This document shows positions 41,919 to 45,123 of a DNA stretch of 55,677 nt, piece after piece (the stretch's first letter is position 1; each line of letters begins with the position of its first letter). The position numbers and the translations under genes were made by a program. This stretch comes from a bacterium (GTDB taxonomy: Bacteria; Sysuimicrobiota; Sysuimicrobiia; Sysuimicrobiales; Segetimicrobiaceae): contig DASYZR010000033.1 in the NCBI GenBank assembly GCA_035945995.1, positions 1 through 55,677 of the forward strand, read 5' to 3'. The notes beneath the pieces were generated by a model. It was not told where the DNA came from, did no database searches, and saw only the letters and a list, made by a program, of their open reading frames with translations.

Positions 41919-42676
41919 GCGCCGCCGAACCGCCGTCGGGGCCGCCCGTCGAGGCGTCGGACGGGACGGCGGCCCTGGCCGCGCTGTGGGCCGTGCAGCA
42001 GGTCGATGCGCGCCTGGCGGCCTTGCGCGCGGAGCGGGCCGCCCTGGACGACGGTACGGCGCTGCGGGCGGAGGCCGCCTCCGCCCGGCAGGCGGCAGAC
42101 GACGCCGCCGCGCGGCTGCATGCCGCGCACGCGACGCTCCGCGACCACGAACTGCAGCTGGCCACGGCGGAGACGAAGCAGAAGAAGGCGTCCGGCGACC
42201 TCTACGGAGGCCGCGTCTCGAACCCCAAGGAGCTCGCCGGACTCGAAGAGGAGCTCGCGATCCTCGCGCGGACCCGCGATCACCTGGAGGATCGAATTCT
42301 CGCGCTGTTCGACGAGGTCGAGAGGCTCAAGGGCGATTTGGCGGCGCGGCAGGCGGAGGCACGGGCGCTCGAAGAGCGTCTCGCCGCGCACCTCGCCGTG
42401 TACGACCGTGAGCGCGGGCGGCTCGAGGCGGAGATCGGGTCCCGGGAGGCCGAGCGGGCCAGGCTCGCCGCCGCCGTCGAGCCCCGGCTGCTCAAGAAGT
42501 ACGACGGCATCGCGGCGCAGGAGGGCGGCGTGGGGATGGTGGCGATCGTCGGCGGATTCTGCGGTGGCTGCCACAACGACGTGCCGGCCCGGTTCGTCTC
42601 CCGCGTGCGCGGCGGCGACGTGGTGACCTGCGAACGCTGCCACCGGATCTTGTATCTGCCCGACGGCGCGCGGTGA
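41915..42676 (+). CDS. Coiled-coil protein with C4 zinc ribbon (CdsZ-like)
   Basis: 253 residues. About residues 20-190 form a long heptad coiled coil; LYGGRVSNPKELAGLEEEL in its middle is a family-specific loop. The C-terminus carries two CxxC pairs (GGFCGGCHNDVP and VTCERCHRILY) making a C4 zinc ribbon. The family is widespread in bacteria, is often next to an RNase H gene as here, and probably binds nucleic acid. Exact function is unsettled. Both ends overlap neighbours by 4 bp. Confidence 0.85.
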   Translation: MSAAEPPSGPPVEASDGTAALAALWAVQQVDARLAALRAERAALDDGTALRAEAASARQAADDAAARLHAAHATLRDHELQLATAETKQKKASGDLYGGRVSNPKELAGLEEELAILARTRDHLEDRILALFDEVERLKGDLAARQAEARALEERLAAHLAVYDRERGRLEAEIGSREAERARLAAAVEPRLLKKYDGIAAQEGGVGMVAIVGGFCGGCHNDVPARFVSRVRGGDVVTCERCHRILYLPDGAR

Positions 42677-43152
42677 CGGGGGGATCGCGCCGGCGCCCCG
42701 CCGGCCGGAAGACGGGGCGGCCGTCTGCACCCGGGCACGTCCCCGCCGCGGCGTCCGACGTGACGATCTGCATCGACGGCGCCTCGCGGGGCAACCCGGG
42801 GCACGCGTCGATCGGCGTTCTCGTGCTGGCCGGCGGCGAGCCGCTCAAGACGATCGCCGAGCGCATCGGCGTCGCGACCAACAACGTGGCCGAGTACAAG
42901 GCTCTCCTGCGGGGCCTCGACGAAGCGGCCGCGTTGGGCGCGTCCACCGTTCACGTGCAGAGCGACAGCGAGCTGCTCGTGCGGCAGATTCTCGGGGAGT
43001 ACAAGGTGCGCAACGAAACCCTGGCGCCGCTGCATCGGGAGGCGCTCGCCCGCATGCGCCGGTTCAGCCGCGTGCACGTCTTTCACGTTCCCAGGGCACG
43101 GAACGCGGCCGCGGACGGGCTCGCCAATCGCGCGCTGGACGCGCCGCGCTAA
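42673..43152 (+). CDS. rnhA: Ribonuclease HI family protein
   Basis: 159 residues. The four active-site acids are visible: Asp35 (ICIDGASRGNPG), Glu74 (NNVAEYKALL), Asp98 (QSDSELLVRQ) and Asp148 (ARNAAADGLANRAL). It should cut the RNA strand of RNA-DNA hybrids. About 28 N-terminal residues are basic and Pro/Gly-rich and have no counterpart in the fold, perhaps for nucleic-acid contact. GTG 42673 overlaps the zinc-ribbon stop (GTGA). The basic handle region (KVRN) is in the short prokaryotic form. Confidence 0.92.
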   Translation: MTGGSRRRPAGRKTGRPSAPGHVPAAASDVTICIDGASRGNPGHASIGVLVLAGGEPLKTIAERIGVATNNVAEYKALLRGLDEAAALGASTVHVQSDSELLVRQILGEYKVRNETLAPLHREALARMRRFSRVHVFHVPRARNAAADGLANRALDAPR

Positions 43153-43313
43153 GTCGGATTCCCGGTAGTGCGGCCGGACCGCCAGTGGCGAGGCGGCCCA
43201 GGCGCCGCATTTCCGATTTGACCACGCGCCAGAAACTTCGAGGATGACCCTGTCATACAATTGACCGGGCGAGACGACTAATGTGTCGACAAATGAATCC
43301 GACAGGACCGTAA

Positions 43314-43832
43314 ATGGATATTTGGGGGCTGCGGGCCCTCCTGGAGCGGAGCCATCGTGAGAACTACGGGTGGGCGCTCAGCTGTTGTTCGCATGATCTT
43401 CGAGAGGCCGAAGACGTGCTCCAGACCGTTTACCTGAAAGTTTTGGACGGGAAGGCGAGATACGATGGAAGGGCGACGTTCAAGACGTGGCTCTTTTCGG
43501 TGATTCGCAACACGGCCGTCGAAGAGCGCCGGCGCACCATCCTGCGCAGGCTGCTGTGGATCAAATGTCGGAAGAACACCGACCACGTCGTGGAAGGAGA
43601 TCTTGACGAAGCGGCCCATCAGTCGCAAATCCGCGCACTGTTGCGGAGCACCCTTGCCGCGCTTCCGAAACGGCAGCGAGAGGTTTTGCAGTTGGTCTTC
43701 TATCATGGCTTTAGCCTGCAGGAAGCCGCGGATGTGATGGGGATCTCAATCGGCTCCGCGCGTACGCATTACGACCGGGGCAAGAAACGACTCCGCCAGT
43801 GGTTGGAGGAATCCAAGATCTTGGATGAATGA
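43314..43832 (+). CDS. ECF-type RNA polymerase sigma factor
   Basis: 172 residues. Region 2 contains DLREAEDVLQTVYLKVLDG and ATFKTWLFSVIRNTAVEERRR; region 4 contains LPKRQREVLQLVFYHGFSLQEAADVMGISIGSARTHYDRGKKRLRQWL, a helix-turn-helix for -35 recognition. Length and two-domain layout match ECF factors. The next two genes overlap it and each other, and encode a one-TM and a periplasmic protein, so it should be held inactive at the membrane. A TACAAT box (43256-43261) upstream is a possible housekeeping -10. The operon is visibly less GC-rich than the rest, which suggests a different origin. Confidence 0.95.
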   Translation: MDIWGLRALLERSHRENYGWALSCCSHDLREAEDVLQTVYLKVLDGKARYDGRATFKTWLFSVIRNTAVEERRRTILRRLLWIKCRKNTDHVVEGDLDEAAHQSQIRALLRSTLAALPKRQREVLQLVFYHGFSLQEAADVMGISIGSARTHYDRGKKRLRQWLEESKILDE

Positions 43833-44199
43833 CGACCGGCACGAAAGGGAAATGAGAGAACTCTTCCACGCGCTCAAGCGGCGGGACGAGCGCATCGCAC
43901 CACCCTTCTCCAGGAGCTGCGAAGGCGCGTTGGCTCGCATGCGAAAGCCTTCCCGATCTCGGCGCCTCGCTCGAGTTACTGCCGCCGCCGCGCTTGGTCT
44001 GCTTGGCGTGTTCGGGTTCTTCTTCATGCACCCCACGAGGCCGCCGGAACTGAATATTGTCTCCGGGTGGCAGTCACCTACAGCGCCTCTACTGAAATCT
44101 CTCGATGACCCGCTGCTGAAAACGGTCCCACGCCTCGACGAGCCTTTGGTAGAGATCAAACTCGTTACACCAGAGAAAGGGAGCGGAGGCTCAAGATGA
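43825..44199 (+). CDS. Probable one-TM anti-sigma factor
   Basis: 124 residues: a charged cytosolic half (about 1-48), one membrane segment (about 50-68, VTAAAALGLLGVFGFFFM), and a periplasmic tail of about 55 residues. No zinc HxxxCxxC motif is present. It overlaps the sigma gene by 8 bp and the LTxxQ gene by 4 bp, the standard position of anti-sigma factors. The function is inferred from topology and position, as no anti-sigma family motif is clear. A CnrY-like role, tethering the sigma until the periplasmic partner signals, is the working hypothesis. Confidence 0.65.
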   Translation: MNDDRHEREMRELFHALKRRDERIAPPFSRSCEGALARMRKPSRSRRLARVTAAAALGLLGVFGFFFMHPTRPPELNIVSGWQSPTAPLLKSLDDPLLKTVPRLDEPLVEIKLVTPEKGSGGSR

Positions 44200-44630
44200 C
44201 AAATCGATCGAAAGTTGTGGCGTCCTGCCTTGCGCTGCTCTTCTTCGTTGCGACCCCTCTTTGGGGGCAACAATCCCCCGACCCGATCGGTGACGCCCTT
44301 TTCGCCCCGGAGTTGGTGATGCAAAATCAGCAGGCGATCCGGCTCACCGACGATCAAAAGAGCTTCATCATTGCAGAGATCCACAAAGCGCAATCCCAGT
44401 TTCCTGAGTTGCAGTGGCGGCTCCAGGGTGAGATGGAGACGATGGCCTCTCTCCTGAAGCAGGACCGCGTCGATGAGCAAAGGGTTCAGGCGCAACTCGA
44501 CAGGGTGCTGGGTCTCGAGCGCGAGATCAAACGGGCTCAAATTACCTTGCTGGTCCGCATTAAGAATACGTTGACTCCCGAGCAGCGAGGGCGCCTTCAA
44601 GAAATCAAGAAGAAACTGCAGGGGAAATAA
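44196..44630 (+). CDS. Periplasmic LTxxQ (Spy/CpxP/CnrX-like) protein
   Basis: 144 residues with a signal peptide of about 24 residues (SCLALLFFVATPLWG). The mature part is helical with two LTxxQ motifs, Leu50-Thr-Asp-Asp-Gln54 and Leu126-Thr-Pro-Glu-Gln130, the hallmark of the Spy/CpxP/CnrX group. Members act as periplasmic chaperones or as metal sensors that free an anti-sigma factor. The mature protein has no Cys and few His, so metal binding is not evident. Its place as third gene of a sigma/anti-sigma operon suggests it is the sensor or a feedback target. Confidence 0.8.
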   Translation: MTNRSKVVASCLALLFFVATPLWGQQSPDPIGDALFAPELVMQNQQAIRLTDDQKSFIIAEIHKAQSQFPELQWRLQGEMETMASLLKQDRVDEQRVQAQLDRVLGLEREIKRAQITLLVRIKNTLTPEQRGRLQEIKKKLQGK

Positions 44631-44648
44631 CCAGCGTCCCGGTCGTGG

Positions 44649-44685
44649 CCACGCGCCAAACCGGCGCGTGGTCTCTTCGTTGGTT
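44649..44685 (+). terminator. Intrinsic terminator of the sigma operon
   Basis: CCACGCGCC (44649-44657), loop AAACC, GGCGCGTGG (44663-44671) form a perfect 9-bp stem. It is followed by TCTCTTCGTTGGTT, which is T-rich for this genome. It begins 19 bp after the LTxxQ gene stop and ends where the rnpB promoter starts. Confidence 0.75.
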
Positions 44686-44719: not shown

Positions 44720-45067
44720 GGGAGCAGGCCAGGCGGCCGCGGGCGGAGTATCGTCCGAGGAAAGTCCGGGCTCCATAGGGCAGGGTGCTGGGTAACGCCC
44801 AGTGGGGGCGACCCCGAGGACAGTGCCACAGAAACATACCGCCGCCGCGCGGCTCGATCGGCGCGGTGGTAAGGGTGCAAGGGTGCGGTAAGAGCGCACC
44901 AGCGGCCGGGTGACCGGCCGGCTCGGCAAACCCCACCCGGAGCAAGGTCACGTAGGGGGAGATGAGGCGGCCCGCCGATCCCCGGGTAGACTGCTGGAGG
45001 CGCCGGGCAACCGGCGTCCTAGAGAGATGGCCGCCCTCGACAGAACCCGGCTTACCGGCCTGCTCCC
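44720..45067 (+). ncRNA. rnpB: RNase P RNA, bacterial class A
   Basis: The catalytic RNA of RNase P, which matures tRNA 5' ends. Conserved elements appear in order: GAGGAAAGTCCGGGCTCC (44757 on), GACAGTGCCACAGAAA, the GGTAAGGGTGCAAGGGTGCGGTAAGAGCGCACC stretch, the AGAGAGATGGCCGCCC region, and ACAGAACCCGGCTTACCGG near the end. The ends are set by helix P1, GGGAGCAGGCC (44720-44730) pairing with GGCCTGCTCCC (45057-45067). The presence of the P-loop set and the long GC-rich arms fits ancestral type A, not the Bacillus type B. Confidence 0.97.
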
Positions 45068-45123
45068 ATGGTGATCTTTCGTGCACGCGCGGTGTCCGCG
45101 CCGCGGGCCGAGGAGGGTGTCCG

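Follow-up and report, generated by a model that had tools for sequence, protein, structure and literature searches.

Proteins with the Spy/CpxP fold are known as chaperones, as kinase modulators and as metal sensors. In enterobacteria, the accessory protein CpxP is titrated off a membrane sensor, the histidine kinase CpxA, from which it is displaced by misfolded PapE (PMC4160245). The CnrYXH system of Cupriavidus metallidurans combines an ECF sigma factor and a short anti-sigma factor, with one transmembrane (TM) segment and two cytoplasmic helices, with a membrane-anchored periplasmic protein of this fold, CnrX (PMC7689651, PMC4598750). CnrX needs conserved metal ligands, including Met123 (PMC7689651). 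In CirYZ-Spy of Phocaeicola vulgatus (Bacteroidota), the genes are in the order sigma, anti-sigma, Spy-like; the sigma factor mainly activates itself, spy and two downstream envelope genes, and Spy is read as an output and not as a sensor (PMC13114119).

The locus described here is a cassette of three genes in a window of 55,677 nucleotides, which is the whole stretch of DNA that was analysed; all coordinates given below are on its + strand. The initial annotation had likened it to CnrYXH. The likeness is good as regards logic, in that both have an ECF sigma factor, a short one-TM anti-sigma factor with two cytoplasmic helices (predicted here) and a periplasmic protein of the same fold. It does not extend to membership of that system: the gene order is different, and the membrane anchor of CnrX, its conserved metal ligands and the efflux regulon were not found here. 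With CirYZ-Spy the cassette shares the gene order and a Spy-fold third gene; that the sigma factor activates its own operon, as in CirYZ-Spy, is predicted here from the conserved promoter. CirYZ-Spy differs in its phylum, in its regulon and in the role given to Spy. CpxP and Spy themselves match the third protein by fold and by profile, but CpxP acts on a histidine kinase rather than an anti-sigma factor, and the LFPPELVM signature of the cassette LTxxQ family precedes the part that can be aligned to Spy.

Triplets of the same architecture, ECF sigma, HxxxCxxC anti-sigma and LTxxQ, are present within the host's order (L007, L009, L011-L013). They differ from the cassette in having another sigma family, a zinc-finger-type anti-sigma domain and no TGTCATA promoter, and their LTxxQ proteins are only 22-29% identical to that of the cassette, with another N-terminus. 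Some of their tails read SP[AST]VxALLP, which is loosely like SPTxxLL. ECF41 promoters have a −35 element, TGTCACA, similar to the TGTCATA of the cassette, but their −10 element is CGTC at 16 ± 1 nt, and in ECF41 a C-terminal extension replaces the anti-sigma factor (PMC3426412).

The three genes and their products

The three open reading frames lie at 43314-43832, 43825-44199 and 44196-44630 and overlap by 8 and 4 bp. Behind the third is a terminator-like hairpin of 11 bp (44647-44673, −23.8 kcal/mol), though its T-run is weak. The neighbours, both outside the cassette, are an RNase H-like gene (42673-43152; PF13456 and synteny) and the class A RNase P RNA gene rnpB (44721-45070; RF00010, 287.5 bits, and synteny). 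The initial annotation was thus correct on the overlaps, on the terminator and on the lack of adjacent efflux genes, and its reading of the genes as an ECF sigma, one-TM anti-sigma and LTxxQ triplet agrees with the profiles, the topology model and the fold.

The first gene encodes an ECF sigma factor of 172 residues (Sigma70_r2, 8e-12; Sigma70_r4_2, 1e-14; TIGR02937, 5e-26), which has sigma regions 2 and 4 only according to Pfam and NCBIfam, and which is conserved together with the triplet. None of the best 25 NCBIfam subgroup models listed reaches its cut-off; the protein may already have a published ECF group number. Its region 2 opens with WALSCC (residues 20-25, 43371-43388), an example of a nearly invariant W-A-x-x-C-C that runs through the family (W20 in 92, C24 in 88 and C25 in 80 of 93 sigma factors). 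A conserved pair of cytoplasmic cysteines is unusual for a sigma factor.

The second gene encodes a protein of 124 residues, assigned as the anti-sigma factor by its position and topology. It has no family match above curated cut-offs in Pfam or NCBIfam, no homologous solved structure, and no sequence match to CnrY in the PDB. An AlphaFold2 model made with 25 relatives (mean pLDDT 74.8) predicts cytoplasmic helices at residues 3-24 and 28-40, a helix at 42-68 that contains the TM segment (approximately residues 48-68, 43966-44028, hydrophobic in the model and in our reading of the sequence), and a loose periplasmic tail with pLDDT below 70, in which there is a short helix at 87-91. Among the 25 aligned relatives, the protein is variable outside a cytoplasmic stretch (F14, L17) and a periplasmic motif W-x-[SA]-P-T-D-x-L-L, so that two conserved islands flank the membrane; the tail motif is conserved and the linker is not. 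In the window the motif is WQSPTAPLL (residues 82-90, 44068-44094), and W82, L89 and L90 are invariant or nearly so in the alignment. A weaker P-G-x-x-L-L-x-x-V-P follows it. The motif occurs twice in a few loci (L151, L152, L158, L179), and in the Myxococcota loci L163-L167 it is at or near the extreme C-terminus. HxxxCxxC is absent from the window protein and from all 25 aligned relatives, and was seen only in the swapped loci described below.

The third gene encodes a protein of 144 residues with an N-terminal signal sequence. It passes the cut-off for Pfam Metal_resist (PF13801; 37.6 vs. 29.2 bits) and is below that for LTXXQ (PF07813; 17.7 vs. 24.3). The AlphaFold2 model is confident (mean pLDDT 90.7, about 98 in the helical core), and in Foldseek its best matches are CpxP, ZraP, CnrX, NccX and Spy; the E-values are weak (0.03 to 0.3), but the top 29 places are all occupied by this one fold. 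By sequence, a profile made from 20 relatives matches Spy (1.4e-4) and CpxP (4e-3). The Spy-like helices are preceded by the signature LFAPELVM (44298-44321), which except for A37 is invariant in the 20 relatives. Variants of the protein were seen in single loci: in two from Myxococcota (L067, L079) it seems to be a lipoprotein, with lipobox-like LAGLVAC or GGMLAAC, rather than a soluble periplasmic protein, and a verrucomicrobial locus (L051, 4854-5678) has an LFPPELVM-bearing protein with a longer C-terminus and no adjoining sigma or anti-sigma gene.

It had been noted at the outset that the LTxxQ protein lacks obvious metal ligands, and a wider comparison bears this out: across 118 relatives there is no conserved His or Cys. 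No column has Cys in more than 3.4%, while the best His columns, positions 44 (58%) and 115 (51%), are often swapped with Asn and Gln, which are the residues in the window protein (Asn44, Gln115). His is found at both positions in 41 of the 118 relatives, mostly from Gemmatimonadota. It is possible that a metal site is confined to this subgroup; a metal role for the window protein is unlikely.

Distribution of the triplet and its acquisition by the host

One scan of named genomes gave 43 LTxxQ loci. In whole-genome searches with a limit of E ≤ 1e-15, the LTxxQ protein was present in 58 of 395 genomes from the phylum to which a Gemmatimonadetes locus belongs, 30 of 396 from Acidobacteria, 21 of 284 from Myxococcales, and 7 of 241 from the phylum of a Chthoniobacter locus (Verrucomicrobiota). 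In total there were 134 distinct LTxxQ loci, of which 120 had at least 1150 nt upstream and could be tested. The search for the same triplet in other genomes, suggested in the initial annotation as a check, had a positive outcome: order and orientation recur in 115 of these 120 loci, in which the LTxxQ gene is preceded, at a distance of 0.6-1.4 kb, by a same-strand ECF sigma gene. A recognisable anti-sigma gene lies between the two in 116 of 118 distinct sigma-bearing loci. The phyla are Gemmatimonadota, Acidobacteriota, Myxococcota, Verrucomicrobiota and, in two genomes, the phylum of the host. As judged from these sequences, the triplet is a conserved kind of operon, beyond chance.

The lower GC content noted for these genes also holds. 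The segment containing the whole cassette (43150-44682, with approximate ends, from GC content and the ends of the RNase H and rnpB alignment blocks) has 58.7% GC compared to 72.0% in the flanks, and third-position GC is 0.65-0.72 in the cassette genes compared to about 0.90. The two other genomes of the genus, and five further members of the family, have the order RNase H to rnpB without the triplet. Between the aligned blocks, the genus mates have gaps of approximately 113 and 32 nt, where the window has approximately 1540 nt. Neither the LTxxQ protein nor the triplet is present in any of the 11 other family genomes searched. The genome comparisons show that the cassette was acquired by the host lineage, and its absence from the rest of the family reflects this acquisition rather than a spurious triplet.

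Within the host phylum, the LTxxQ protein is found in only 2 of 43 genomes. The second carrier (G036) lacks the triplet at its RNase H region (L271) and has its own copy on another contig, which implies two or more gains of the triplet in the phylum, or else a gain with later movement and loss. A locus labelled Armatimonadetes bacterium 13_1_40CM_64_14 (L044, MNEU01000050.1) appears to be this same genome, in the host's order, and the label is probably outdated or wrong. No plasmid-borne copies of the cassette were found. Repeats at the ends of the insert are short and imperfect; a pair of 13 bp (43219 and 44646, 92%) has probably arisen by chance.

The promoter and its predicted regulon

A shared promoter motif, which had also been proposed as a check, was found upstream of the sigma genes. 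It has the form GTC[AC]TA-N19-AC[TC][ACT]A, and is usually TGTCATAT...(C/G)AC(T/C)(A/C)AT. The spacing is exactly 19 nt in 77 of 116 loci, while any other spacing is seen in 0-3 loci. The reverse strand gives 2 matches, and 0.4 are expected from shuffled sequences. In the window, the predicted sigma-specific promoter is TGTCATA-N19-ACTAAT, a 32-nt element at 43251-43282 that reads TGTCATACAATTGACCGGGCGAGACGACTAAT; it is the single match in the window, with 0.18 expected.

The initial annotation had placed the regulon elsewhere. This is not supported: the promoter of the relatives has one exact match in the whole host genome, ahead of the cassette operon. With two mismatches allowed, the host genome gave 5 matches and the reversed control 13. 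Apart from the site of the cassette itself there are four of these in the host, and not one is clearly ahead of an envelope gene. Given the single exact match, the regulon in the host is likely to be the cassette operon itself.

In 80 triplet-bearing genomes there are 34 exact matches, compared to 3 in the control. Genomes with a match mostly have one site, usually before the triplet, and the additional sites are mostly before genes for secreted proteins or lipoproteins. They include a second LTXXQ protein (G488; 55 bits to PF07813), secreted helical proteins (G1380), a DUF4349 lipoprotein gene that leads into the triplet (G065), related lipoproteins (G167, G172) and a DUF1800 gene (G722). One acidobacterial genome (G674, loci L245-L249) has seven exact copies, with small secreted or membrane proteins, an M48-like peptidase and a protein kinase downstream, and may have a wider regulon.

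The periplasmic half and a candidate mechanism

In four loci (L046, L047, L049, L050) the sigma factor belongs to a different family and the anti-sigma factor carries an N-terminal HxxxCxxC domain, and yet the tail is the same, TWRSPTxALL, and the LTxxQ proteins are 54-60% identical to that of the window. These LTxxQ proteins form one clade (99% SH-aLRT), nested in a larger supported set with the window protein and others from Acidobacteria and Verrucomicrobia. It follows from this position that the cytoplasmic half was exchanged once, while tail and LTxxQ protein stayed with each other. Module exchange is therefore shown by the tree and the alignments, and the periplasmic half, made up of tail and LTxxQ protein, behaves as a portable module.

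Covariation was analysed in 93 loci. Column pairs between tail and LTxxQ protein, and between the anti-sigma N-terminus and sigma factor, score above the two cross-membrane controls, with z > 3 for 0.92% of tail-LTxxQ pairs compared to 0.15% of tail-sigma pairs, and both contrasts keep their positive sign in 88-100% of 100 subsamples. With 93 loci and phylogeny not fully removed, the signal is modest, and the contrast shrinks without Myxococcota and Verrucomicrobiota. The result agrees with a pairing of tail with LTxxQ protein and of N-terminus with sigma factor, and is suggestive rather than a proof. A natural fusion of anti-sigma factor and LTxxQ protein was sought, and none was found.

The explanation that we favour, with moderate confidence, is that the cassette is an acquired, self-contained and autogenous envelope-stress circuit in which the LTxxQ protein acts through the anti-sigma tail. 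The N-terminal helices of the one-TM protein would hold the sigma factor at the membrane, in a CnrY-like manner, and the LTxxQ protein would bind the SPTDxLL motif of the tail and keep the anti-sigma factor inhibitory, although the sequence would also allow it to act in the other direction and help release. Damaged or unfolded envelope proteins would occupy the LTxxQ protein and so free the tail, on which the anti-sigma factor would let go, by conformational change or proteolysis, and release the sigma factor. The freed sigma factor would then transcribe its own operon from TGTCATA-N19-ACTAAT, and the newly made LTxxQ protein would be both the protective output and the shut-off signal. Envelope protein damage is plausible as the signal, with indirect support from the extra promoter copies in relatives, which precede genes for secreted proteins and lipoproteins, including the second LTXXQ protein. 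There are precedents for this logic in the displacement of CpxP from CpxA by misfolded PapE (PMC4160245), in CnrX-CnrY-CnrH (PMC7689651, PMC4598750) and in the CirYZ-Spy operon (PMC13114119). Points against it are the modest covariation signal, the low confidence of the tail in the model, and the L051 protein, whose gene has no sigma neighbour.

What chiefly separates this explanation from its first rival is whether the LTxxQ protein also senses, or serves solely as an output. It could be simply a chaperone, produced as an output, while the anti-sigma tail senses something else, for example as a recognition site for a site-1 protease, much as DegS cleaves RseA. In E. coli, as in CirYZ-Spy, Spy is an output; the motif of L163-L167 is placed at or near the C-terminus, as protease or PDZ signals often are; and at the extra promoter copies other secreted proteins are driven with no sigma gene alongside. 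We nevertheless consider an output-only role rather unlikely, as the tail and the LTxxQ protein stay paired when the sigma factor and anti-sigma domain are swapped, which would be needless for a mere output, and their covariation exceeds that of the controls.

A CnrX-type sensor, in which metal bound to the LTxxQ protein alters the anti-sigma factor and frees the sigma factor, is more improbable still. In its favour are the Metal_resist match, the resemblance in fold to CnrX and NccX (TM-scores of 0.5-0.57, by query length) and the His/His subgroup. It does not fit the lack of conserved Cys and His, given that CnrX needs conserved ligands (PMC7689651), nor the Asn44 and Gln115 of the window protein, the absence of adjoining efflux genes, and a promoter whose only copy is the cassette's own. 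Slightly lower again we would place a decaying or silent acquired piece with no function in the host. Presence in only one of 12 family genomes examined and a foreign base composition would be expected of such a piece, but the three frames are intact, and the promoter consensus and spacing and the family motifs have been kept.

The favoured circuit can be extended to a broader proposal, which we put forward only tentatively: that the SPTDxLL tail together with the LTxxQ protein makes up a portable sensor based on chaperone titration. The tail peptide, short and linear, would mimic an unfolded client of a Spy-like chaperone, so that the sigma factor is held off as long as chaperone is free and comes on when the envelope is damaged. 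This sensor would have been combined with two or more unrelated sigma/anti-sigma pairs, and would move between phyla as a single autogenous cassette.

The architecture as such is already known from CirYZ-Spy and, in its logic, from CnrYXH. In open-licence papers, where CirYZ-Spy was found, we found no description of the cassette family; the features not found described are the SPTDxLL tail and its pairing with an LFPPELVM-type LTxxQ protein, the promoter with its fixed 19-nt spacing, the module exchange and the transfer of the cassette. Since the parts are small, the 32-nt promoter is unusually well defined and the predicted regulon in this host is one operon, the mechanism is open to testing by transfer of one piece of 1.5 kb to a laboratory strain.

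If the favoured explanation is true, Spy/CpxP-fold proteins would be direct gatekeepers of ECF sigma factors, acting via a defined peptide motif. The swapped loci are an example of a periplasmic sensing half exchanged between unrelated sigma/anti-sigma halves. Envelope-stress signalling has scarcely been studied in Gemmatimonadota, Acidobacteriota, Verrucomicrobiota, Myxococcota or the phylum of the host, and the recurrence of the cassette across five or more phyla, where it shares a promoter and a conserved periplasmic peptide, points to a portable way of sensing envelope damage.
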